Positions 4,598 through 14,525 of a stretch of DNA of 57,250 nt are shown here, in pieces. This DNA comes from Clostridia bacterium (GTDB taxonomy: Bacteria; Bacillota; Clostridia; Oscillospirales; CAG-272). The translations under genes and the position numbers were made by a program. Numbering within the stretch: the stretch's first letter is position 1; the number at the start of each line of letters is the position of its first letter. The notes below the pieces were generated by a model. That model saw only the letters and a list, made by a program, of their open reading frames with translations. It was not told the origin of the DNA and made no database searches. Location: assembly GCA_017387685.1 (NCBI GenBank), contig JAFOEU010000039.1, positions 1-57,250 on the forward strand. The letters are read 5' to 3'.

Positions 4598-4626
4598 AAG
4601 CACGGGTGTTAAATCCGTGCTTTTTT
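4598..4626 (+). terminator. Rho-independent terminator
   Basis: AAGCACGG and CCGTGCTT stem with T6 tail, 6 bases after the stop of the 3857 gene. Confidence 0.85.
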
Positions 4627-4700
4627 ACGCTGAAGGCTTGACTTTTTTTCCAAAATATTGTATCATTATATCAACATCAAAGAAAGGCAAGGTCAAAATA

Positions 4701-7502
4701 ATGACTAAACGTATTCTAAGCTTCATTTTGGCACTCACATTTGTGATCTGTCTGCTCCCCGCAAGTGCCCTCTCGGCTTTTGCCGAAGCGACCGTTATTG
4801 AAACTAAATGGTCGAACGGTGCTGTGGGCGGTCCCACCAACTCGAACAAGTACAAGTTCATTTCCAACGCAAACTACCGCACCTCCGATATCATCACTAT
4901 CGCAAAGGCGGGCACCAAGGTTTATTATACCGCCCCCACCAAGGCGGGTATCGGACACACGCTGTTCGCTGTTTCCGTTTGGGTACAGGAAAACGGCGAG
5001 TGGGTCGTTGACAAGGCGGCGGCTAATGTCGACGGTACTTTCGCTTACGGCAAGAGCATCGGTCAGACCGTTGTCTCGGGCGGTATAAGATACGAGTTCA
5101 TTACCGATAAGGATAACCAGTCGATCCGCTTCTCCTACGCCGCAGACGGTGACGGAAGCACTCCCGTTATCTATGCGGAGCCCACGACCGAGCCCTCGAC
5201 TCTCGATCAGCTGAACGCGCGCAACTTCACCGCTACCTTTGATGCCAACGGCACCATCGGCAACCTTCAGTGGTTCTGCGGATACGCATCCTCCGCGACC
5301 AACACCAACGGTTCGGCAAAGGAGGTACGCCACGCATCTGCGGCGTATGCCTTCTCGGGACTTATCCGTGTTCCCAAGGCGGGCACGAAGATCACCTACT
5401 CCTCCGCATCCAATAACAACGCCTTCAATGCCTTCACGCGCTATAAGCTTGAGGGCGGCAGATACGTTTACGATATCGGTTATGACGCGCAGAGCACCCT
5501 CGTAAAGAACGGCTCTACCTATACCTACGTTACCGAGTACGATAACGAGGTCATCCGCCTTTGCGTTAAGGCAGACAAGAATTATACCGATATCGCAGTT
5601 CCCGCTCCCGTGACAGTTAAGTGGGAGCAGACCAATTTGCCCGGAACGGCTTCGGGCAACGTCGAGCTTAAGACCGAATGGCCCGCTGCCGAGCTTATCA
5701 GTATGGTCACCGGTGCTCCCCTCATCGCGACCTCCGAGGTCAAGGGGCTTCAGTGGTACGACGGCTACGTAGGCTCGCAGTACCACGACAGTCAGGCGTT
5801 CAAGATCGCAAACGGCAACGCGGATTACGATTATTCCGACGTCTTCACCGTTCCGAAGGCGGGTACTACCGTTTACTTCTTCGACCAGACCTTCACTGAT
5901 TTCGACGGCAGCTCCTATGCTTCGACAAGCGTTATGACCATCTCGCATTGGAAAAAGGAAGGTTCAAATTGGGTATTTGATAAGTCGAAGGAATACCTCA
6001 ACGGATGTGACGTTTATAACGTCCTTATGACCAAGAATTACCGCCTCTACTCCTACACCACCACCGAGGATAACGAAAACCTCCGCATTTGTATGCGTTA
6101 CGCGGCAGTTTACTCGACCGAGGAGGAGATCATTCCCCCCATTTACCTCGTTGAGCCCACCGATTTTAAGACTATCGACAAGACCGGTGCGTTGACCGAT
6201 GCGTCTTACACCGATCCCTCGGGCGCAAAGGTTGATTACAAGATCTACCTCCCCGCAGGCTATACCGCAGATAAGCAGTACACTCTCGTTTTCGATAACT
6301 CCGCAGATTCCGCTATTGCAAACGCGCTTGTCGGTAAGAATTATAACGGCATCGTCCTCGCATACGCGGGCAATCTCGATGTTTCTCTCCGTCTTTTCGA
6401 TGAGGTAGTCAAGAACTATCCCGTTAAGGTTTCCGATCTTCTTGCAGTAGGTGACGAAAAGCTCGCGAAGCATTTCGTTGATTTTGAGATCATCAGACTT
6501 TGCGAGGCTATGGTAGTTACCTCGAACAATGTTCCCTCCGCAAAGTACGCATCCCTCAAGGCTATGTCTTCGTTCGCATCGGCAGAAGAAGCGGCTCTTT
6601 GGCTCGTCGGCGAGACTGAGGACTACTATGACGTTCTCGATGGAGTCAAGATGTACGCGATCGGTGACAGCTATTTTGGCGGCTCACAGCTCGGTCAGCA
6701 CCAGACCTGGGTCAACCTTCTCGGTTACAAGTACGGTATGACCTTCCACAACTACGGTATCGGCGGCAACACCGTTGCAACCGCGCGCGGTCAGTCGGGC
6801 AATCAGCCTCCTATGCACACCCGTTACGATCAGATGCCCACGGACGGCGACATCTACATCATCGAGGGCGGACGAAATGACCGTCATTACAGCGTTCCCT
6901 TCGGTGATAACGACAGCACGAAGACATCCACCTTCAAGGGTGCGCTCAACGTGATCATTCAGGGCATTCGCGCGAAGAATCCCGATGCCTTCATCGTTCT
7001 CGTAACTCCTTGGAGCTATGCTACCGAAACGGGTTATCTCGGTACCAATAACGATTACGCCGACGCGATGAAGGAGCTTGCCGAATACTATAACGATCCT
7101 CACGTCGTTTGTATGTACGCGGCAGATGCGGAGTACACCGGCGTTGATATGGCTGATGCGAAGTTCCGCGCAAAATATTGCCAGACCGCAAGTGACGTCA
7201 GCCACCTCAATGCAGACGGTATGTACCTCGTAGCACCTAAATTTGATAAGTGGCTCGCAGAGGCTTACGCGAAGTTCAAGGGCGCAACCCTTACCAACTC
7301 CGCAGAGGCAGAGCAGTTCCTCACTATTGAAGAGGAACCCGAGACCACCGCCGCTCCCGAGACCGAGGCACCTACAGTGACCGAAGCTCCCACGCAGACC
7401 GAGCCCGCGCCCGAAAAGAAGGGATGCGGCTCCATGATCGCAGGCGGTGCGGCAATTATCGCCATCCTCGCAACCGCTGTTGTTTTCAAGAAGGAAGACT
7501 GA
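4701..7502 (+). CDS. Secreted, C-terminally anchored SGNH/GDSL hydrolase with three N-terminal repeats
   Basis: A 933-residue protein with an N-terminal signal peptide ending near ALSAFAEA. Three repeats share a (K)AGTK/T-V-Y/T-Y/F core near residues 68, 224 and 384, a spacing of about 158, suggesting tandem beta-rich, possibly glycan-binding, modules. The SGNH catalytic domain is near residues 640-850: GDSYFGG (Ser657), GIGGN, EGGRND and the terminal D-x-x-H in DVSHLNADG. This family removes acyl groups from polysaccharides or lipids. The C-terminus has a Thr/Pro/Glu-rich spacer, EKKGCGS, a hydrophobic helix and the basic-acidic tail KKED. ATG 4701 is chosen because AAAGGCAAGG precedes it and the signal peptide begins there. 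The deacylation target is unknown. Confidence 0.85.
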   Translation: MTKRILSFILALTFVICLLPASALSAFAEATVIETKWSNGAVGGPTNSNKYKFISNANYRTSDIITIAKAGTKVYYTAPTKAGIGHTLFAVSVWVQENGEWVVDKAAANVDGTFAYGKSIGQTVVSGGIRYEFITDKDNQSIRFSYAADGDGSTPVIYAEPTTEPSTLDQLNARNFTATFDANGTIGNLQWFCGYASSATNTNGSAKEVRHASAAYAFSGLIRVPKAGTKITYSSASNNNAFNAFTRYKLEGGRYVYDIGYDAQSTLVKNGSTYTYVTEYDNEVIRLCVKADKNYTDIAVPAPVTVKWEQTNLPGTASGNVELKTEWPAAELISMVTGAPLIATSEVKGLQWYDGYVGSQYHDSQAFKIANGNADYDYSDVFTVPKAGTTVYFFDQTFTDFDGSSYASTSVMTISHWKKEGSNWVFDKSKEYLNGCDVYNVLMTKNYRLYSYTTTEDNENLRICMRYAAVYSTEEEIIPPIYLVEPTDFKTIDKTGALTDASYTDPSGAKVDYKIYLPAGYTADKQYTLVFDNSADSAIANALVGKNYNGIVLAYAGNLDVSLRLFDEVVKNYPVKVSDLLAVGDEKLAKHFVDFEIIRLCEAMVVTSNNVPSAKYASLKAMSSFASAEEAALWLVGETEDYYDVLDGVKMYAIGDSYFGGSQLGQHQTWVNLLGYKYGMTFHNYGIGGNTVATARGQSGNQPPMHTRYDQMPTDGDIYIIEGGRNDRHYSVPFGDNDSTKTSTFKGALNVIIQGIRAKNPDAFIVLVTPWSYATETGYLGTNNDYADAMKELAEYYNDPHVVCMYAADAEYTGVDMADAKFRAKYCQTASDVSHLNADGMYLVAPKFDKWLAEAYAKFKGATLTNSAEAEQFLTIEEEPETTAAPETEAPTVTEAPTQTEPAPEKKGCGSMIAGGAAIIAILATAVVFKKED

Positions 7503-7698: not shown

Positions 7699-9024
7699 TC
7701 AGCGGATTATCACTTCATTCTCTCCGTATTCGATACGGTCTCCCGTGCAGTTGAGGCTGTCGATGTAGTCGAGGTAGGCGCGTGCGCTTTCGAATTGAGG
7801 CTCGAATTCCTCGACGATCTTCTTTGCGCGTTCCGCACCGTCACGGAGAAGGAGCGAGAGCATCGAAAGCTGGAGCTTTGCGCTTCCTATGCAGGCGGCA
7901 ACGGGGTCTACGATCTGATAATCGTTGCCGTGCGAAGTACCCGATGCGCCGCCCGCGTAGGGGTGGATGACGGGCATTATGCAGGAAAGGTCGCCCATAT
8001 CGGTACTTCCCGAGCCGAAGCTGTGTCTCGCCTTCATTTCGTATTCGGGGATCGCCGCCTCTGCCGCCTCGAGGGTGAGGGCGATCATATTTTTATCGTT
8101 GACGAGGGGCGCGTAGCCGGGGATATCGGTGATGTCGATATTCGCGCCGAGCGAAAGTGCGCCGCCGATGAGGGCGCGGTTGACCTTTTTGTTTGCGCTG
8201 ACGATGGCGTCAAAGGTCTTGCCGCGAACATAGCTTTCAAGTGTTACGGTCTCGGGGATCGCGTTTACCATCTGTCCGCCGCTCGTTATGATCGGGTGGA
8301 CACGGATGATATCAGCCTCACGGAAGGTTTCGCGGATGGCATTAACGGCGTTCAGACCGCAGTTTGCGGCGTAGAGCGCGTTGGTGCCGAGGTGAGGCGA
8401 GCCGCCCGCGTGCGCCGCCTTGCCCTTGTAGGTGATCTTTTTAGCCATACAGCCAACCGAGCCGGGCGCGGTGCGGAAGGAGCCCGAGGTGTGGATCATA
8501 AACGCGATATCAACGCCATCGAAGAGCCCGCGCGAGAGGAATTCGCTCTTGCCGCCCATATATTTGATGACGCCCTGCTCGCGCAGACCCGCGCGGTATT
8601 CGATCTCAAGAAGCTCCTCAGCGGGGACTGCGCAGAGGCGTATTCTGCCCGAGAGGGTATCGAGTGCGCCCTCCTCCTTAAGTGCGGCGGCGATACCAAT
8701 CAGCGCGGCGCACTGCGCGTTATGACCGCAGGAATGGACTGCGCCCGTCGTTTTATCCGATTCGGGATGCTCGGGGCAGATTATCGAGTCGAGCTCACCG
8801 AGGATGAGCACCTCGGGACCGGGTCTGCCCGTGTCGAGCACGGTGACGAATCCCGTGATACCCTCAGCGGGAGTCAGCTCGTAGCCGAGTTCGGTGAAGA
8901 CCTTCTTCATATAGGCATCGGTCTTGTATTCCTTATATCCCGTTTCGGGATTCTGCCAGATGTATCTTTCGGATGCGAGTATAAGCTCGCGGTGTTTTTC
9001 TACTGCGGAATTAAAGTCGAACAT
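7699..9024 (-). CDS. M20 family (M20D-like) amidohydrolase/peptidase
   Basis: A 441-residue cytoplasmic enzyme of the M20 metallopeptidase clan. Visible metal-site motifs are ELDS, HSCGHNAQ, the AEELLE glutamates, IHTSG, and a late TSHGND histidine; the inserted dimerisation domain (AHAGGSPHLG) is also present. The pattern is closest to AbgB/HipO-type amidohydrolases that cleave N-acyl amino acids or p-aminobenzoyl-glutamate-like amides; the exact substrate cannot be told. The start at 9024 follows GAGGT; an upstream in-frame start would lie across the promoter. The last four codons lie inside a repeat linker. It appears monocistronic. Confidence 0.85.
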   Translation of the reverse strand: MFDFNSAVEKHRELILASERYIWQNPETGYKEYKTDAYMKKVFTELGYELTPAEGITGFVTVLDTGRPGPEVLILGELDSIICPEHPESDKTTGAVHSCGHNAQCAALIGIAAALKEEGALDTLSGRIRLCAVPAEELLEIEYRAGLREQGVIKYMGGKSEFLSRGLFDGVDIAFMIHTSGSFRTAPGSVGCMAKKITYKGKAAHAGGSPHLGTNALYAANCGLNAVNAIRETFREADIIRVHPIITSGGQMVNAIPETVTLESYVRGKTFDAIVSANKKVNRALIGGALSLGANIDITDIPGYAPLVNDKNMIALTLEAAEAAIPEYEMKARHSFGSGSTDMGDLSCIMPVIHPYAGGASGTSHGNDYQIVDPVAACIGSAKLQLSMLSLLLRDGAERAKKIVEEFEPQFESARAYLDYIDSLNCTGDRIEYGENEVIIR

Positions 9025-9051
9025 AATATTGTACCTCGCTTTTTTTGTTTT

Positions 9052-9080
9052 ATTATAGCACAAAATATATGAAAATGCAA
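9052..9080 (-). promoter_or_regulatory. Promoter of the M20 gene
   Basis: On the minus strand TTGCAT (9075-9080), 17-base spacer, TATAAT (9052-9057). The -35 box overlaps the edge of the dispersed GTGCGAACATAGC motif at 9077-9099. Confidence 0.7.
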
Positions 9081-9099
9081 GTGCGAACATAGCTTTCTG

Positions 9100-9330
9100 A
9101 ATATTGTCATAAAAGTTCGCCGTCTGCGGACGGCGGGGGTGACAGAGCGCAATCCTTCCCTACAGCCGGGAAGGATTGACTCTGTCCAAAATCGAGAAGC
9201 GGAGCTTCACGATTTTGAAGCGCGGTGGCGCGAGCTGAAGCTCGCGCATTAAAATGAGGCTCCGCCTCAAACTCCGCGAACTTTTGAAAAAGTTCGATCA
9301 AAACTTTGAGCTTTTTTGTTGGGTGAGTAA
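9100..9330. repeat. Cluster of unrelated small hairpins, no gene
   Basis: Several perfect short stem-loops follow one another: CGCCGTC/GACGGCG, AATCCTTCCC/GGGAAGGATT, AATCG-GAAGC/GCTTC-CGATT, GCGCGAGCT/AGCTCGCGC and GAGGC/GCCTC. No coding signal is seen. The layout resembles the other hairpin arrays but no constant linker is evident. Confidence 0.5.
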
Positions 9331-9360: not shown

Positions 9361-10122
9361 TTATTCTTGTCCTGCGGAGAGGAATGCTATGAGTTTTTCG
9401 CTCTTGGGGTTGCCAAACAATTCCTCGGGTGTGCCTTCTTCCTCGATCACTCCGTCCGAGATGAAGATCACGCGGTCGGAGACGTGGCGTGCGAATTCCA
9501 TTTCGTGCGTGACGATGATCATCGTGCGCTCCGAGTCCTTCAGGGAGCGGATAACGCGAAGCACCTCGCCCGTCAGCTCGGGGTCGAGGGAGGACGTGGG
9601 TTCATCGAAGCAGAGGATGTCGGGGGAGAGCATAAGTGCGCGCGCGATAGCAACTCTCTGCTGCTGACCGCCCGAAAGGCGGCAAGGGTATTCGTTTGCC
9701 TTTTCGGTAAGTCCGACGGTGGCAAGGAGCTGTTTCGCTCTTTCTTCAATATCCTCGATCTTCTCGCCCGTTCCCATCCTCTTTGCGCGGAGCTTGGGGG
9801 CGAGCATCAGGTTTTCGATGACGCTGTACTGTGGGAAAAGGTTGAACTGCTGGAATACAAGCCCAAAGGAGAGCTGTGCTTCGGGCGCGATGGTGGGCTT
9901 TTCGCCTTCGGTTGCGGAAAATACTGTCTTATCCGCAACAACTATCTCGCCGTTGTTTGCGATCTCAAGGAAGTTGAGGCAACGCAGAAGCGTGGTTTTT
10001 CCTCCGCCCGATGAGCCGATGATCGAGAGCACCTCGCCTTTTTTCAGCGAAAGATCTATGCCCTTGAGCACCTCATTGTCCCCGAAACGCTTGCGGAGAT
10101 CTTTAACTTCAAGAATATTCAT
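9361..10122 (-). CDS. glnQ: Polar amino acid ABC transporter ATP-binding protein
   Basis: This 253-residue ATPase has Walker A GSSGGGKTT (36-44), Q-loop QQFNLFPQ, signature LSGGQ (149-153), Walker B LCFDEPTSSLD (171-180) and the switch region VTHEM. It closely fits the GlnQ/HisP/ArtM class, which energises import of polar amino acids. It is last in a three-gene operon after the binding protein and the permease; the permease stop is about 12 bases upstream. Substrate specificity cannot be assigned from the ATPase, and the gene symbol is a family label only. Confidence 0.93.
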   Translation of the reverse strand: MNILEVKDLRKRFGDNEVLKGIDLSLKKGEVLSIIGSSGGGKTTLLRCLNFLEIANNGEIVVADKTVFSATEGEKPTIAPEAQLSFGLVFQQFNLFPQYSVIENLMLAPKLRAKRMGTGEKIEDIEERAKQLLATVGLTEKANEYPCRLSGGQQQRVAIARALMLSPDILCFDEPTSSLDPELTGEVLRVIRSLKDSERTMIIVTHEMEFARHVSDRVIFISDGVIEEEGTPEELFGNPKSEKLIAFLSAGQE

Positions 10123-10134
10123 TTTCAGGTCTCC

Positions 10135-10782
10135 TTAATTGAAATAGCTCAGCTTCTTTTCAAGCTTTCCGAAGAGGAAGGTGAGAAGCGCGGTGAATAC
10201 GAGATAATAAACTGCGGTGTAGAAGAGCGGCCAGAGAAGTCCCGCATTTTTGATGTATCTCTGTGCGAAGTAGATCAGCTCGTAATAGGTTACGACACGC
10301 GCAAGCGAGGTATCCTTGACGAGGGTGATGATCTCATTCGACATAGGCGGGATGATGCGCTTGATTACCTGCAGAAGCACGACCTTGAAGAAGGTCTCGC
10401 GGCGTGTCATACCGAGAACCTGACCCGCCTCGTACTGTCCCTTGGCGATCGACTCGATGCCGCCTCGGTAAATTTCCGAGAAATAGCAGGCGTAGTTGAT
10501 CGAGAAGGTTATGTAGACCGCTGACACCGAGGTCAGAAGGACACGGCCGAAGATCAGACCGGGACCGTAATAGACGGTGATAAGCTGGAGCATAAGCGGA
10601 GTTCCGCGTATTACCCATACGAAAGCGCGTGTTAAAGCCGAGAGCGGCTTGAATTTTGACATCGAGCCAAATGCGATTATGAGTCCGAGCGGAAGGGAAA
10701 AGGCGAGTGTGACGAGGAATATTTTAAGCGTCTCACCAAAGCCGACCAAAAGGTCGAGGGTTATATTTATGAACTGTTCCAT
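10135..10782 (-). CDS. Polar amino acid ABC transporter permease (HisM/GlnP type)
   Basis: A 215-residue membrane protein with several hydrophobic helices and the EAA loop (YEAGQVLGMTRRE...IIPP) that contacts the ATPase. The ATG at 10782 is used; an upstream TTG at 10809 would lie in the loop of the hairpin between this gene and the binding-protein gene. No strong ribosome binding site is visible, which would keep the permease low relative to the binding protein. It is the only permease in the operon, consistent with a homodimer. Confidence 0.9.
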   Translation of the reverse strand: MEQFINITLDLLVGFGETLKIFLVTLAFSLPLGLIIAFGSMSKFKPLSALTRAFVWVIRGTPLMLQLITVYYGPGLIFGRVLLTSVSAVYITFSINYACYFSEIYRGGIESIAKGQYEAGQVLGMTRRETFFKVVLLQVIKRIIPPMSNEIITLVKDTSLARVVTYYELIYFAQRYIKNAGLLWPLFYTAVYYLVFTALLTFLFGKLEKKLSYFN

Positions 10783-10792
10783 AGTCTTAAAT

Positions 10793-10826
10793 ATTGCCCG
10801 GTTTGCCAATTGGCTCGCCGGGCAAT
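10793..10826 (-). terminator. Intra-operon hairpin, partial terminator or RNA stabiliser
   Basis: ATTGCCCGG and CCGGGCAAT arms between the binding-protein stop and the permease start. Such hairpins commonly hold binding-protein mRNA at higher levels than the downstream permease; that role is inferred here. Confidence 0.6.
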
Positions 10827-10836
10827 TTTACTTTCT

Positions 10837-11655
10837 TTAGTTTTTGATCAGAGCCTTTGCAAGGGTAAGGTCGACGATCGCCGCCTCGGAAGCACCCGAG
10901 AGAACCTCGAGGAGTGCATCGGTCTGTGCGGTTACGCCCTTGAGACCGCCCTTAAGAGAGTCGATGGAGAGGATAACGCCCTCGCCTGCGGAGCCTGCCT
11001 CAGCCGCGATGCTTACGCCCTGAAGATCGGAGAGAGTCTTGTACTTATCAGCGTTAGCCTTCTTGATAACGGCAACCTGAGTGTTGTACATATAAGGAGC
11101 GGTGCAATCTGCTGCAGCCTCGATAGCGTCGGTGATGGTCATACCGTTCCATACGCAGTCGATATCCTTGGATTCGAGAGCCATAAGCTTGTAGTCCCAG
11201 TCGATCTCCTTGAATTCAGCCTCAACGCCAAGCTTTGCGCATACTGCGCGCGCGTAATCTGCGTCAAATCCGATCCATTCACCGCTCTCGTCCTTGTAGT
11301 CCATAGGCTTATAGTCGGTGATACCGATCACAAGCTTGCCGTTAGCCTTAACGTAATCGTAGTCGCCGCTTCCCACACAGGGATCAGCCTTGGGGGTGTA
11401 ATCGTCCTTGCCGACAGCGCCGACCTCATATTTGGTCGAAAGCTCAGCGAGAGTGCCGTCGTTGATAAGCTCAAGGGTAATATCCTCAACCATTCTGGTG
11501 AGGTCGGAGCCGGAACGGAAAGCGATTCCGAAATATTCGCGCTCAAGACCGAGGTCAAGGATCATAAGATCATCATAGCTGCCGCCGCCCGCGCAGGATG
11601 CAAAAGCAGTGGTGAGCATTGCGAGTGCCATAAGAATAGCAATAAGTTTTTTCAT
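10837..11655 (-). CDS. Amino acid ABC transporter substrate-binding lipoprotein, circularly permuted
   Basis: A 272-residue family-3 solute-binding lipoprotein: signal peptide, lipobox FASC with Cys21. The domain order is abnormal. Residues 26-79 (DDLMILDLGLEREY, IAFRSGSDL, NDGTLAELSTKY) are the segment that normally ends these proteins, while the usual mature N-terminus (YDYVKANGKLVIGITD) starts only at residue 98. The protein then stops at AAIVDLTLAKALIKN, the point where that missing C-terminal segment should begin. All parts are present once and the length is normal, so it is a circular permutation with a 19-residue linker (80-97). WNGMTITD and EAGSAGEG support a polar amino acid ligand. 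First gene of the operon. Confidence 0.93.
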   Translation of the reverse strand: MKKLIAILMALAMLTTAFASCAGGGSYDDLMILDLGLEREYFGIAFRSGSDLTRMVEDITLELINDGTLAELSTKYEVGAVGKDDYTPKADPCVGSGDYDYVKANGKLVIGITDYKPMDYKDESGEWIGFDADYARAVCAKLGVEAEFKEIDWDYKLMALESKDIDCVWNGMTITDAIEAAADCTAPYMYNTQVAVIKKANADKYKTLSDLQGVSIAAEAGSAGEGVILSIDSLKGGLKGVTAQTDALLEVLSGASEAAIVDLTLAKALIKN

Positions 11656-11691: not shown

Positions 11692-11711
11692 TACTTTACC
11701 TTGTTAAAGTA
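11692..11711. promoter_or_regulatory. Candidate operator of the amino acid ABC operon
   Basis: A 7-base perfect inverted repeat (TACTTTA, 6-base centre, TAAAGTA) placed just after the -10 box, overlapping the expected transcription start. The position suits a repressor site; no regulator gene is adjacent. Confidence 0.5.
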
Positions 11712-11716
11712 ATAAA

Positions 11717-11745
11717 ATTATATCACTCTTGTCAGCGTTTGTCAA
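11717..11745 (-). promoter_or_regulatory. Promoter of the amino acid ABC operon
   Basis: Perfect TTGACA (11740-11745), 17-base spacer, TATAAT (11717-11722) on the minus strand. Confidence 0.9.
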
Positions 11746-11784
11746 GTGTTTTTTACAAATTTTCGAGAAATTTTAGAAAAAATC

Positions 11785-11815
11785 AAGTGCCGACTCATTT
11801 TTGGAGTCGGCACTT
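11785..11815 (-). terminator. Terminator of the YwaF-like gene
   Basis: Twelve-base stem AAGTGCCGACTC / GAGTCGGCACTT, followed on the minus strand by GATTTTTT. Confidence 0.9.
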
Positions 11816-11824
11816 AGGCTTAAA

Positions 11825-12583
11825 TTATGAGTTGTTTTTCTTTTTCCTGTCGATCAGATACCACGGCAGGTATGCGACGAAGTAGAGCGCGGTTATGACG
11901 GACGCCATAATCAGCAATCTCAGCGCGAAGTTGGAGGGGAGGATATCGAGTATCGACGGAGTTGCTTCGGGGCGCGCCATAAAGAGGTAGTTTGCTCCCG
12001 GGCCGATGATGACGTTTGCTATGTAAGCGACAACCGCGAGGATGGCAAGCCAGATGTAGGAGCGGAAGATCGATTTGAAATAAGGACGCATCTTATGTAC
12101 GAAGATCAGATAAAATATTCCGATATAACCGATCAGGTGCTCCGTCCAGAACTGATAAAAGCGGAAGCGCGTCGGGCCCGCGTAGGTGAGAACGGTCGGA
12201 GTGATCAAAGCAAAGGTAGTTCCGCAGAGTGCCCAGAAATAGCAGATATCGAAAAGATACTGATTCTTGCCGACCATCATAAAGCATCCGAATATGACCG
12301 CCCAGCCGCAAACGGCGATGGGAAGATGATCGACGGGGTTGGGATTAAGCTCGGTGATTCCGACAAGACGCCAATAATACGCCATTTCGGAAATTATCAT
12401 AATAAACGCGATAGCGTATCTGAAGCGATGCTCGTTTTTGCAAGCCGCGAGCTTATCGCGGAAATACCATATAGCGAAAATTACCGCCGCGCCGACGAGT
12501 ATTGGCATAAGGTGTGTGAGGGTGAAATTTTCAAATTCAACCTCTGTTCCTTGACCGAAAAAATAATGGAAAAAATCTTTCAT
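11825..12583 (-). CDS. YwaF/TIGR02206-like integral membrane protein
   Basis: A 252-residue protein with about seven hydrophobic helices. Order and motifs fit the YwaF (TIGR02206) family: an early Glu/His region (FTLTHLMPI), ELNPNPVDHLPIAVCGW, a TYAGPTRFRFYQFWTEH loop, and a short basic tail. The family's role is unknown. It is monocistronic, with its own promoter at 12615 and a strong terminator. The start at 12583 has only a weak upstream GGACGG; no better start exists. Confidence 0.82.
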   Translation of the reverse strand: MKDFFHYFFGQGTEVEFENFTLTHLMPILVGAAVIFAIWYFRDKLAACKNEHRFRYAIAFIMIISEMAYYWRLVGITELNPNPVDHLPIAVCGWAVIFGCFMMVGKNQYLFDICYFWALCGTTFALITPTVLTYAGPTRFRFYQFWTEHLIGYIGIFYLIFVHKMRPYFKSIFRSYIWLAILAVVAYIANVIIGPGANYLFMARPEATPSILDILPSNFALRLLIMASVITALYFVAYLPWYLIDRKKKNNS

Positions 12584-12659: not shown

Positions 12660-14525
12660 TTAAGAAATAACTTTTCTTCTTTTGATAAATCCTGCGAGCG
12701 GGAGGAGGATGAGGACAATTCCCGATGCGGAGATGATACCGCCGCAGCCTTTTTCTTCGATTACCTCGGTATTTATATCGGTAGTTGTTTCGGGAGCTGC
12801 CGTGATCGGAGCTTCGGTTTCGGGCGCGGTTGTTTCCTCGGGCTCATCCTTACCGAAGGTCAGCTTGATGGTCTTGTTCGACTCGCAGAAGTATTTGTCA
12901 AAAACGGTCGAATAGTACTCAACCTTCGCGTGCTTGCCGTCGGCGGTGAAGTACATCATACCTATCGCGCCGAGACCGCCGAGCTTTTTGCAGGTCGACT
13001 GCGGGTCCATAAGGATCTGATAGACGGTATTGCCCGCGTCGCCCTCACGGGGAGTGCAGACGATGGTATCGTGGTGCATATGACCGCTGACGATCATCGC
13101 GATATTTTGGTGCTTGCTGACGAGCTTTTCCCAAATATCCTCGCCGCTGTTAAGGGTTTTGACGTAGGTGTCGGGTGATGCGTAGTCATTCGAGTCGAGA
13201 GTGGTGCCGTCGGAATTGAGGTAGCCGTGGGTGGTGATGATCGCGCGGTGATCGGGGTGTGAGGTGAGGATATCGCTTGCCCACGCAAGGATATCGTCGG
13301 TCGCGCCGAAATCAAGAACGACAACGAGGTAATCTACCTCACCTACGGTGAAGGTGTGATAGGTATTGCGGACCGAGTTTTCGTCAAAGAATCCGCCGTT
13401 TTCGCGTACAAGCTGATAGTAGTGGCCCGTCTTTTTAGCATAAACGCTGTCGAGGACCTCCTTGCCGCCCGAGTTGATACCGTCGTGGTTACCGGGGGTG
13501 AGGGCGTAGGGAATATAGCCGTTGAGGCGGTTGGTCTGACGGAGTATGGTAGCCCATTCGCCGTCGGTGTTTGCATTTGTTATGTCGCCGAGACCGAGGA
13601 CGTACTGAATATTATGCGTTTTTCCCTTATCAACGAGAAAGTCGATCATAATCTTGAGCGAGCCGGGATAGCTCTGCGTCATATACTGAATGTCGGGGAG
13701 AAAGGCGAGGACGTAATCGTATTCGTACTCATCCTCGGCGCGGATCGCCTTCATTTCTTCCTCGGTCAAAAAGTAGCGGGAGTAGGTCATATCGTAGCCG
13801 TGACCGCTCGCATCGGGAACGTCGGATTTGGGCTGCGCCTTCGAGAGCTCGTAGAACATCATAAGCTCGCTGTCGGCAAGGTCGGGACCGTTTTGGTAGT
13901 CTGCGCGTATCTCGTCATTAGTTCGGACGTCGGAATATACCCAGACGTCACCGAGCGTGCCGCGAAATGCCTGCTCGTTGAGCGCACGGTAGTCGCCCGC
14001 GAGGCAGATCATATTGTCAAGAGTCTCGGGGGGAGCTTCGTACCAATCGGAGGTAGCCGTTTTTTGCTTGAGCTGACCGTTGATGTAGCAGGCGATCTGC
14101 TTGCCGTCGGTGCCCATGCCGTAAACTATGGCAACGTGCGTCCACGTGTCTGCGGGAACGGGGGCACGGGAGAATTTATAATCGTACATATTTCCCGCGT
14201 TATCGCCGAAGACGAGTCTCGGAACACCGTTTGAGTGAATTTCAAAGTTGACGTAATTGTCCTTGGAGAAGCTTTGATAGTTGGCGAGGATCGCACCGCA
14301 ACGCGCGGAATAGATGCTCTTGGGAACGTATACCCACGCCTCGAAGGTGATGGGCATCTTTTCAAAGCGCTTATCTGTGTTATAGTATCCAACGGGGTGA
14401 TCTATGCCGTTGGTCTTCGTTCTTTCGAATGTGATACCGCTTTTCGTATCTGCGGACGATACGGAGAGGGAGAGAAGCGAAAGCACGGTGATCAGACAAA
14501 GAAGGGTAGATATGATTCTTTTCAT
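12660..14525 (-). CDS. Secreted LamG-metallophosphoesterase with C-terminal GCG anchor
   Basis: A 621-residue exported protein: signal peptide to about residue 25; a concanavalin/LamG-like lectin fold at about 30-220 (FEAWVYVPKS, DTWTHVAIVYG, CYINGQLKQ, GTLGDVWVYSDVR); then a calcineurin-like metallophosphoesterase domain with PDIQY, GLGDITN, PGNHDG, ITTHGY and SGHMHHD supplying the two-metal ligands. The C-terminus has a Thr/Pro/Glu-rich spacer, EEKGCGG, a hydrophobic helix and RRK. This anchor matches that of the SGNH protein at 4701. It probably hydrolyses a phosphoester at the cell surface; the substrate is unknown. AGGAGAT precedes the start. Confidence 0.88.
   Translation of the reverse strand: MKRIISTLLCLITVLSLLSLSVSSADTKSGITFERTKTNGIDHPVGYYNTDKRFEKMPITFEAWVYVPKSIYSARCGAILANYQSFSKDNYVNFEIHSNGVPRLVFGDNAGNMYDYKFSRAPVPADTWTHVAIVYGMGTDGKQIACYINGQLKQKTATSDWYEAPPETLDNMICLAGDYRALNEQAFRGTLGDVWVYSDVRTNDEIRADYQNGPDLADSELMMFYELSKAQPKSDVPDASGHGYDMTYSRYFLTEEEMKAIRAEDEYEYDYVLAFLPDIQYMTQSYPGSLKIMIDFLVDKGKTHNIQYVLGLGDITNANTDGEWATILRQTNRLNGYIPYALTPGNHDGINSGGKEVLDSVYAKKTGHYYQLVRENGGFFDENSVRNTYHTFTVGEVDYLVVVLDFGATDDILAWASDILTSHPDHRAIITTHGYLNSDGTTLDSNDYASPDTYVKTLNSGEDIWEKLVSKHQNIAMIVSGHMHHDTIVCTPREGDAGNTVYQILMDPQSTCKKLGGLGAIGMMYFTADGKHAKVEYYSTVFDKYFCESNKTIKLTFGKDEPEETTAPETEAPITAAPETTTDINTEVIEEKGCGGIISASGIVLILLPLAGFIKRRKVIS

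Follow-up and report, generated by a model that had tools for sequence, protein, structure and literature searches.

The window, by which we mean the whole stretch of 57,250 nucleotides analysed here, carries on its minus strand an open reading frame (10837..11655, read from 11655 to 10837) exactly where the earlier note had claimed one; the open frame, its match to PF00497 and a rotation scan (see below) assign it to a circularly permuted family-3 (SBP_bac_3) solute-binding lipoprotein (SBP) of 272 aa. Upstream of it lies a promoter-like site (11717..11745, minus strand; TTGACA-17-TATAAT, with TG before the -10 element), which matches the sigma-70 hexamers at 12/12 positions, four promoter-like sites being found in the 3 kb scanned against 2.2 expected. 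Between this site and the start codon there is an operator-like palindrome of 18 bases, ACTTTA-N6-TAAAGT (11693..11710, assigned to neither strand), for which one match was found in the window against 0.05 expected (one mismatch allowed). Genes for the permease and ATPase of a type-I importer are located directly downstream: the ABC permease gene (10135..10809, minus strand; BPD_transp_1, PF00528, 69.7 bits) begins 27 bases past the end of the SBP stop codon and is followed by the ABC ATPase gene (9361..10122, minus strand; PF00005, 112.8 bits). A gene for an M20-family peptidase/amidohydrolase (7699..9090, minus strand; PF01546, 44 bits) comes next, separated from the ATPase gene by a weak terminator-like hairpin (9255..9269, minus strand; five such sites in the stretch scanned against 3.2 expected); an M20 gene is also present 1.8-3.5 kb downstream of the SBP gene in three congeneric loci (L026, L027 and L028).

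On its upstream side, the SBP gene is preceded by a gene for a TMEM164-family membrane protein (11825-12583), and a terminator-like hairpin with 13 pairs in its stem (11784-11816) separates the two. Two large secreted-looking proteins are encoded near the transporter (4617-7502 and 12660-14525); their C-terminal tails are alike by eye, and their domains are a GDSL lipase and LamG plus metallophosphatase, respectively. The draft genome of the window contains one further SBP_bac_3 gene, in canonical order.

Order of the parts in the window protein

The protein begins with a signal peptide (residues 1-20; 11596..11655, minus strand), read by eye from the sequence preceding Cys21, and this cysteine (11593..11595, minus strand), which stands in a FASC motif, is the predicted lipidation site; the lipoprotein signal with the lipobox Cys reads MKKLIAILMALAMLTTAFASC. 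Residues 26-79 (11419..11580, minus strand) constitute the moved block, which opens with SYDDLMILDLGLEREYFGIAFRSGSDL, closes with AELSTKYEV and comprises, in GlnBP numbering, the end of lobe 2 together with the second segment of the hinge and the C-terminal portion of lobe 1. A linker (residues 80-97; 11365..11418, minus strand), which contains Cys93 and occupies the gap between the two HMM matches described below, connects what was the C terminus with the former N terminus. The canonical N-terminal part then extends over residues 98-272 (10840..11364, minus strand; PDB matches e.g. 98-267) and stops after the lobe-2 helix VDLTLAKALI. About the last quarter of the canonical chain is now at the front, and the new termini are placed where, in the parent order, the helix VDLTLAKALI is followed by the strand YDDLMILD; the canonical relative L012 is uninterrupted at this point (...IIDITMANAMTGEGTSYEDLAVSF...EEYGIAFRKNSDL...). 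The block order given in the earlier note, namely Cys21, the canonical C-terminal block at 26-79, the linker, the canonical part at 98-272 and the stop, was thus confirmed. One detail needs correcting: the motif YVKANGK begins at residue 101 and not at 98.

A canonical profile HMM was built on 14 canonical homologues (268 positions). The best collinear match of the native window protein to this profile scored 238.9 bits and covered profile positions 35-206, and the moved block gave a separate match of 35.8 bits (positions 208-261), located ahead of the former in the chain. Since the C-terminal part begins at profile position 208 and the N-terminal part stops at 206, every part is present once within the 272 aa, as had been stated previously, and the new termini adjoin each other in the profile of the parent. 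In the rotation scan, the mature chain was restarted at every point and scored against the same HMM; restarting at residues 82-89 produced a single match of 288.6-289.0 bits over profile positions 35-261, with the peak of 289.0 bits near residue 87.

Searches against PDB sequences agreed with this. With the native chain, the best stretches began at residue 95 or later (60 of the 85 matches listed), the moved block appeared as an insignificant second match in the three PDB alignments shown, and 5tuj, 5t0w and 4zv1 were matched over residues 99-267, 98-267 and 106-271, respectively, whereas the chain rewritten in canonical order (236 residues) aligned with its two top-scoring chains, 5tuj and 5t0w, over residues 5-230 and with 4zv1 over 11-230. 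SBP_bac_3 was the sole Pfam family that matched the window protein at E<=0.001, with 98.3 bits (cut-off, 26.4) over residues 109-267 only; because of this restricted coverage, such proteins are probably read as ordinary SBPs or as fragments. The collinear canonical order was not found along the whole chain; both segments are homologous to family 3 with their order exchanged, and since the C-terminal block precedes the N-terminal part, the protein is a permuted rather than an ordinary member of PF00497. The parent N and C termini both lie within lobe 1 by the GlnBP boundaries. Block order, the rotation scan, the occurrence of the same order in other genomes and purifying selection (see below) bear out the central claim of the earlier note: judged from its sequence, the window protein is a real circular permutant of a family-3 lipoprotein, and the permuted chain would presumably retain the parent fold.

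Conservation and selection

The search of related genomes for the same order, which had been proposed as a check, was positive. Among the 59 genomes compared (the window's own included), three other congeneric genomes carry the full permuted order over the full length (L003, L004 and L005), with 90, 85 and 82% identity, and the operator, permease and ATPase of the window locus are present in them as well. At the family level, a window-type gene, its order checked, was detected at E<=1e-60 in 7 of 295 genomes, own included, a match set from which G004, the genome with 82% identity, is absent at this threshold. Nonsynonymous to synonymous rate ratios (dN/dS) were calculated by the Nei-Gojobori method between the window gene and six homologues: the gene as a whole gave 0.06-0.17 and the moved block 0.02-0.20, and the linker gave 0.12-0.56 in three pairs, the other three being saturated. 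The window gene is under purifying selection.

These data also bear on two trivial explanations. The permuted order could be a wrong join made in metagenome assembly or binning, given that the window comes from a draft genome of 116 contigs and 85% completeness and that most of the named carriers of permuted genes are MAGs. Against this, the identical order occurs in the three other congeneric genomes at 82-90% identity, permuted relatives are found also in the strain-named record L071 and in G366 (about two contigs), and the window frame is uninterrupted, with start, stop and neighbours all in place; misassembly was rejected on the first of these grounds, and the probability that we leave to an artefact is practically nil. 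Alternatively, the gene could be a rearranged remnant on its way out, for which its patchy occurrence (the 7/295 family genomes above) might speak; such decay is extremely unlikely, since the dN/dS of the gene is that of a constrained sequence, on which ground a pseudogene was rejected, the frame is open in all seven copies compared, and the promoter-like and operator-like sites are kept.

Permuted relatives in other genomes

A junction profile, composed of the old C-terminal block, the linker and the old N-terminal start, was run against 394 genomes of the order and 398 of the phylum, and the frames obtained were read with the canonical profile. Permuted genes were confirmed in at least 33 of the 394 and at least 10 of the 398 genomes (the window's own genome being in both sets); one of the 33 order-level cases, L053, is cut by a contig end, and G042 and G051, among the 394, also carry permuted genes (L033 and L034). 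When 84,980 species with named records were scanned, 27 of the best 80 loci proved to hold a permuted gene, of which 23 name the class Clostridia and four name no phylum; the named carriers include Blautia, Acetatifactor and Ruminococcus MAGs and the strain-named record 0.1xD8-71. The matched frames numbered 203 in total (94 permuted and 109 canonical). After three canonical frames had been dropped by length filters and repeats had been merged, the collection comprised 72 distinct permuted proteins, with that of the window among them, and 101 canonical proteins; five additional permuted proteins (L197, L198, L199, L201 and L202) stand outside the 72. The single case described in the earlier note is one of many.

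A lipobox was recognized by a simple pattern rule in 68 of the 72 permuted and 85 of the 101 canonical rows, the lipoprotein signal of the window protein being therefore common to most canonical relatives sampled. In 65 of the 72 permuted loci, the 2.5 kb downstream of the SBP gene contain one permease gene and an ATPase gene, both in its orientation, and in none of those 65 does this interval hold two permeases; of the remaining loci, one has the SBP fused to the permease (L153), two have an ATPase match only and four have neither. Matches were scored by similarity to the corresponding proteins of the window at E<=1e-8, and in many loci the sequence extends for only about 1.1-1.5 kb past the SBP gene. 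The fused product of L153 (2219-3808; 530 aa) is a permuted SBP joined directly to a permease and has no lipobox by the pattern rule. L034 (3017-5673) contains two very divergent SBPs in permuted order that flank an ATPase-like gene, and it has the longest branch in the quick tree described below.

Break positions

Three main classes of break were distinguished among the 72 permuted proteins, all in lobe 2: class A at profile positions from about 206|208 up to 215|219 (n = 28, the window type included), class B at about 167|168 (n = 2) and class C at about 137|139-153 (n = 42). Class C was split by eye on the helix that follows the first hinge strand, which is lost in C1, kept at the new N terminus in C2 and kept at the new C terminus in C3; an automatic split gave at least one C1 protein, L082, a wrong label and grouped the highly divergent pair of L034 with C1. 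Numbered as in GlnBP, the N-terminal part ends at 158-175 in A (with the exception of L121, at 126, a weak match that stops early), at 124-126 in B and at 94-97 in C (one at 103), and the C-terminal part starts at 163-184 in A, 125-130 in B and 96-113 in C (four weak C matches at 126-134). In GlnBP, residues 90-180 form the small domain, lobe 2 (PMC7400645 and PMC13229503). The last residue of the N-terminal part is within lobe 2 in all 72 proteins and the first residue of the C-terminal part in 71, the exception being the truncated L053, in which it falls in the hinge. This restriction to lobe 2 is partly an effect of detection, in that breaks in the first 40 or so residues or in the last lobe-1 helices would escape the junction query; as the junction profile ends, by eye, near GlnBP residue 40, breaks at about 45-89 should have been detected.

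The control region was compared over the same collection by scanning up to 300 bases upstream of each gene for the palindrome core CTTTA-N6-TAAAG, with spacers of 4-8 bases allowed. The core was found upstream of 12 of 71 permuted genes (type A, 9/27; type B, 2/2; type C, 1/42) and 18 of 101 canonical genes, at distances of 31 to 161 bases and with a spacer of invariably 6 bases, and the pattern was absent upstream of the other 59 and 83 genes, respectively. Because the core is common to some canonical genes, the window gene seems to retain a control region of the family, and its palindrome is possibly the operator of some regulator.

Phylogenetic analysis and number of origins

Trees were built from rows rearranged into canonical order. 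At least 12 changes between permuted and canonical order were counted on a quick tree of 173 rows and 11 on a careful tree of 60 chosen rows; restriction to the N-terminal part did not reduce the count (13 changes). Permuted genes are scattered among canonical genes on the trees. The sister group of the Lachnospiraceae C1 clade in the careful tree is the canonical L105/L134 (99/96), and a further C1 pair is placed among the canonical L014-L021. L057 has a window-type break, yet in the careful tree it is sister to the canonical L012 (99/82), apart from the window clade; the support for this pairing is 0 in the quick tree, the surrounding clade having 93. The deep part of the trees is weak for C2, C3 and L034, which are on long branches. 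Topology tests, for which the groups were chosen after inspection of the quick tree, rejected a single clade of all permuted proteins (p-AU = 1.5e-69), all of type A as one clade (p = 1.2e-86), the two C1 groups held together (p = 3.7e-33) and the window type held together with L057 (p = 0.003). Since permuted genes are scattered and a single common origin is rejected, the rearrangement recurred; on the evidence of these trees, circular permutation with breaks in lobe 2 is shown to be a recurrent event of family 3 within the phylum.

The change counts carry no direction, and we infer that the canonical order is the ancestral one. Parsimony, which scores a change in either sense alike, would also accommodate one ancient permutation followed by repeated reversion to the canonical order, and the careful tree, unlike the quick one, does place the canonical L193 within a permuted clade of type A. 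Such a history is very unlikely in view of the several distinct break positions, of the absence of any permuted chain among the PDB matches listed and of the p-AU of 1.5e-69 against one permuted clade, though this last value is by itself compatible with nested reversions.

Route of origin

For each permutation we propose that the SBP sequence was duplicated in tandem and in frame behind a single signal peptide and that the redundant ends were then lost. If permutation proceeds by duplication, fused tandem genes are expected as intermediates (PMC3320104), and tandem fusions are present among the relatives: L149 (787 aa) combines two closely similar SBPs with a tail resembling a permease, L206 has two fused SBPs (528 aa), and L204 (617-4288; 1224 aa) consists of a signal peptide, a C-terminal part (profile 139-258), three whole SBPs, an N-terminal part (43-136) and a permease, that is, of four SBP equivalents in a tandem array in permuted register. 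These fused copies, L204 included, look like surviving duplication intermediates. Tandem fusions need not be intermediates, however, for they occur for other reasons, as in two-domain SBPs such as GlnPQ. The earlier note had proposed duplication and trimming; fused tandem SBPs in relatives, one of them in permuted register, lend this proposal indirect support, and at the window locus itself no duplication intermediate was seen.

A known alternative route (PMC3320104) is fission into half-genes and re-fusion in the reverse order, for which the loops of lobe 2 would be plausible split points; we regard it as unlikely, because fused tandem copies do exist in relatives. Two candidate relics of duplication were discarded. 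Cys93 was considered as a relic lipobox from the signal peptide of the second copy; it is kept in the window-type relatives L003-L005, L038, L039, L041 and L197-L200, but L047 and L048, the earliest branches within the window clade in the careful tree, lack it, and the idea was dropped. A read-through match after the stop of L013 was rejected as a relic since the permease start codon is located only about ten bases past that stop.

Proposed working of the permuted protein

The window gene very probably encodes a working lipid-anchored SBP of an amino-acid-type ABC importer whose chain is circularly permuted. The permuted chain is expected to form the two-lobed trap of ordinary SBPs, which is plausible because lobe 1 contains both of the old termini and the linker between them has about 18 residues. 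The new N terminus would lie in lobe 2, about five residues beyond Cys21, and this proximity would shift the membrane anchor from lobe 1 to lobe 2. As there is one permease gene, the permease is presumably a homodimer with two like docking faces for both lobes, and we propose that the lobe-2 anchor is tolerated for this reason; the idea would explain why a moved anchor is tolerated, not why it should be favoured. The permutation may also affect hinge behaviour or docking on the permease, as suggested in the earlier note. As for the ligand, the equivalent of GlnBP Asp157 is retained in the window protein and that of Arg75 is Ile, the latter position being Arg in 34 of the 101 canonical and 30 of the 72 permuted rows. 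From this replacement, and from the non-Arg residues in many canonical relatives, the ligand may be something other than a plain alpha-amino acid.

Tandem and permuted domains can swap segments. The active form could accordingly be a domain-swapped dimer or multimer in which each trap is built from two chains, a possibility to which the array of SBP units in permuted register in L204 lends some colour. We consider it improbable, as the linker at residues 80-97 looks long enough for self-closure and as TpMglB-2, a permuted SBP of solved structure, is described as monomeric (PMC4990184). A broader proposal, which we advance tentatively and hold to be somewhat less than evenly probable, is that about ten independent permutations of family 3 took place in the phylum, always with lobe-2 termini, because a lobe-2 anchor, or a permease joined to lobe 2, alters presentation of the receptor to a homodimeric permease. 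If this were true, the permuted classes would be convergent adaptations in which tethering geometry and hinge behaviour could be compared as in a natural experiment, and the tandem arrays would be living intermediates.

Comparison with known systems

Natural permutation of an SBP is already known. TpMglB-2 (Tp0684) is a naturally permuted glucose-binding lipoprotein, proposed as type Ic or cluster Bc, and its authors raise tethering as a possible cause of the permutation (PMC4990184). It and the window protein are alike in that both are naturally permuted, lipid-anchored SBPs whose genes cluster with those of an ABC permease and ATPase; its homologues are found in treponemes and Gram-positive bacteria, many from the gut. 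TpMglB-2 differs, according to that source, in being a sugar SBP (type I, cluster B) with a single N-lobe rearrangement and in having 13% identity in the permuted part, with a possible origin from another gene, whereas the window group belongs to family 3, has several lobe-2 breaks, retains clear homology in both parts and has repeated origins. Homology of the window protein to the cluster B sugar SBPs was not found in the Pfam search at E<=0.001; it resembles TpMglB-2 in permutation and is not a member of that group.

TpMglB-2 apart, no natural permuted SBP comparable to the window protein, and none of family 3, was found among the open-access papers listed; PMC12667903, PMC2912341, PMC6588880 and PMC7683729 have no bearing on such proteins. 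Circular permutation has also served to engineer SBP-based sensors, which is not natural permutation. That family 3 has been permuted repeatedly, with breaks at several points of lobe 2, is apparently unreported as far as the literature was searched. DNA methyltransferases and saposin/swaposin share the proposed duplication route, with documented intermediates (PMC3320104), but are unlike the window protein in that they are not two-lobed transport receptors.

Relative to the canonical GlnBP, ArtJ, HisJ and FliY (PF00497), the window protein has homology in both parts, the operon layout and the Asp157 equivalent in common, and it differs in the exchanged order of its parts, in its anchor on lobe 2 and in the change of Arg75 to Ile. 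To our knowledge, most accounts of natural circular permutation concern one old event in each family. In the present case a very common receptor family is permuted repeatedly, at several break sites, beside living relatives of canonical order; owing to this coexistence, the model of permutation by duplication, the capacity of two-lobed receptors to tolerate new termini and the tethering idea put forward for TpMglB-2 can all be tested directly. A natural re-wiring of a common protein family is thereby opened to experiment; the host is a gut bacterium.

The SBP domains of GlnPQ are assumed to be in canonical register. Transporters of this type, with tandem SBDs, have several SBP domains per chain (PMC8025302), and the window protein differs from them as one SBP equivalent in a separate lipoprotein. 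A GlnPQ-like tandem chain is the expected start for permutation by duplication, and in L149 and L204 tandem units are fused to the permease. A fusion of another kind was observed in L203 and L205, in which a canonical SBP domain is located behind a multi-span membrane protein that looks like a symporter of the sodium:alanine type rather than an ABC permease.
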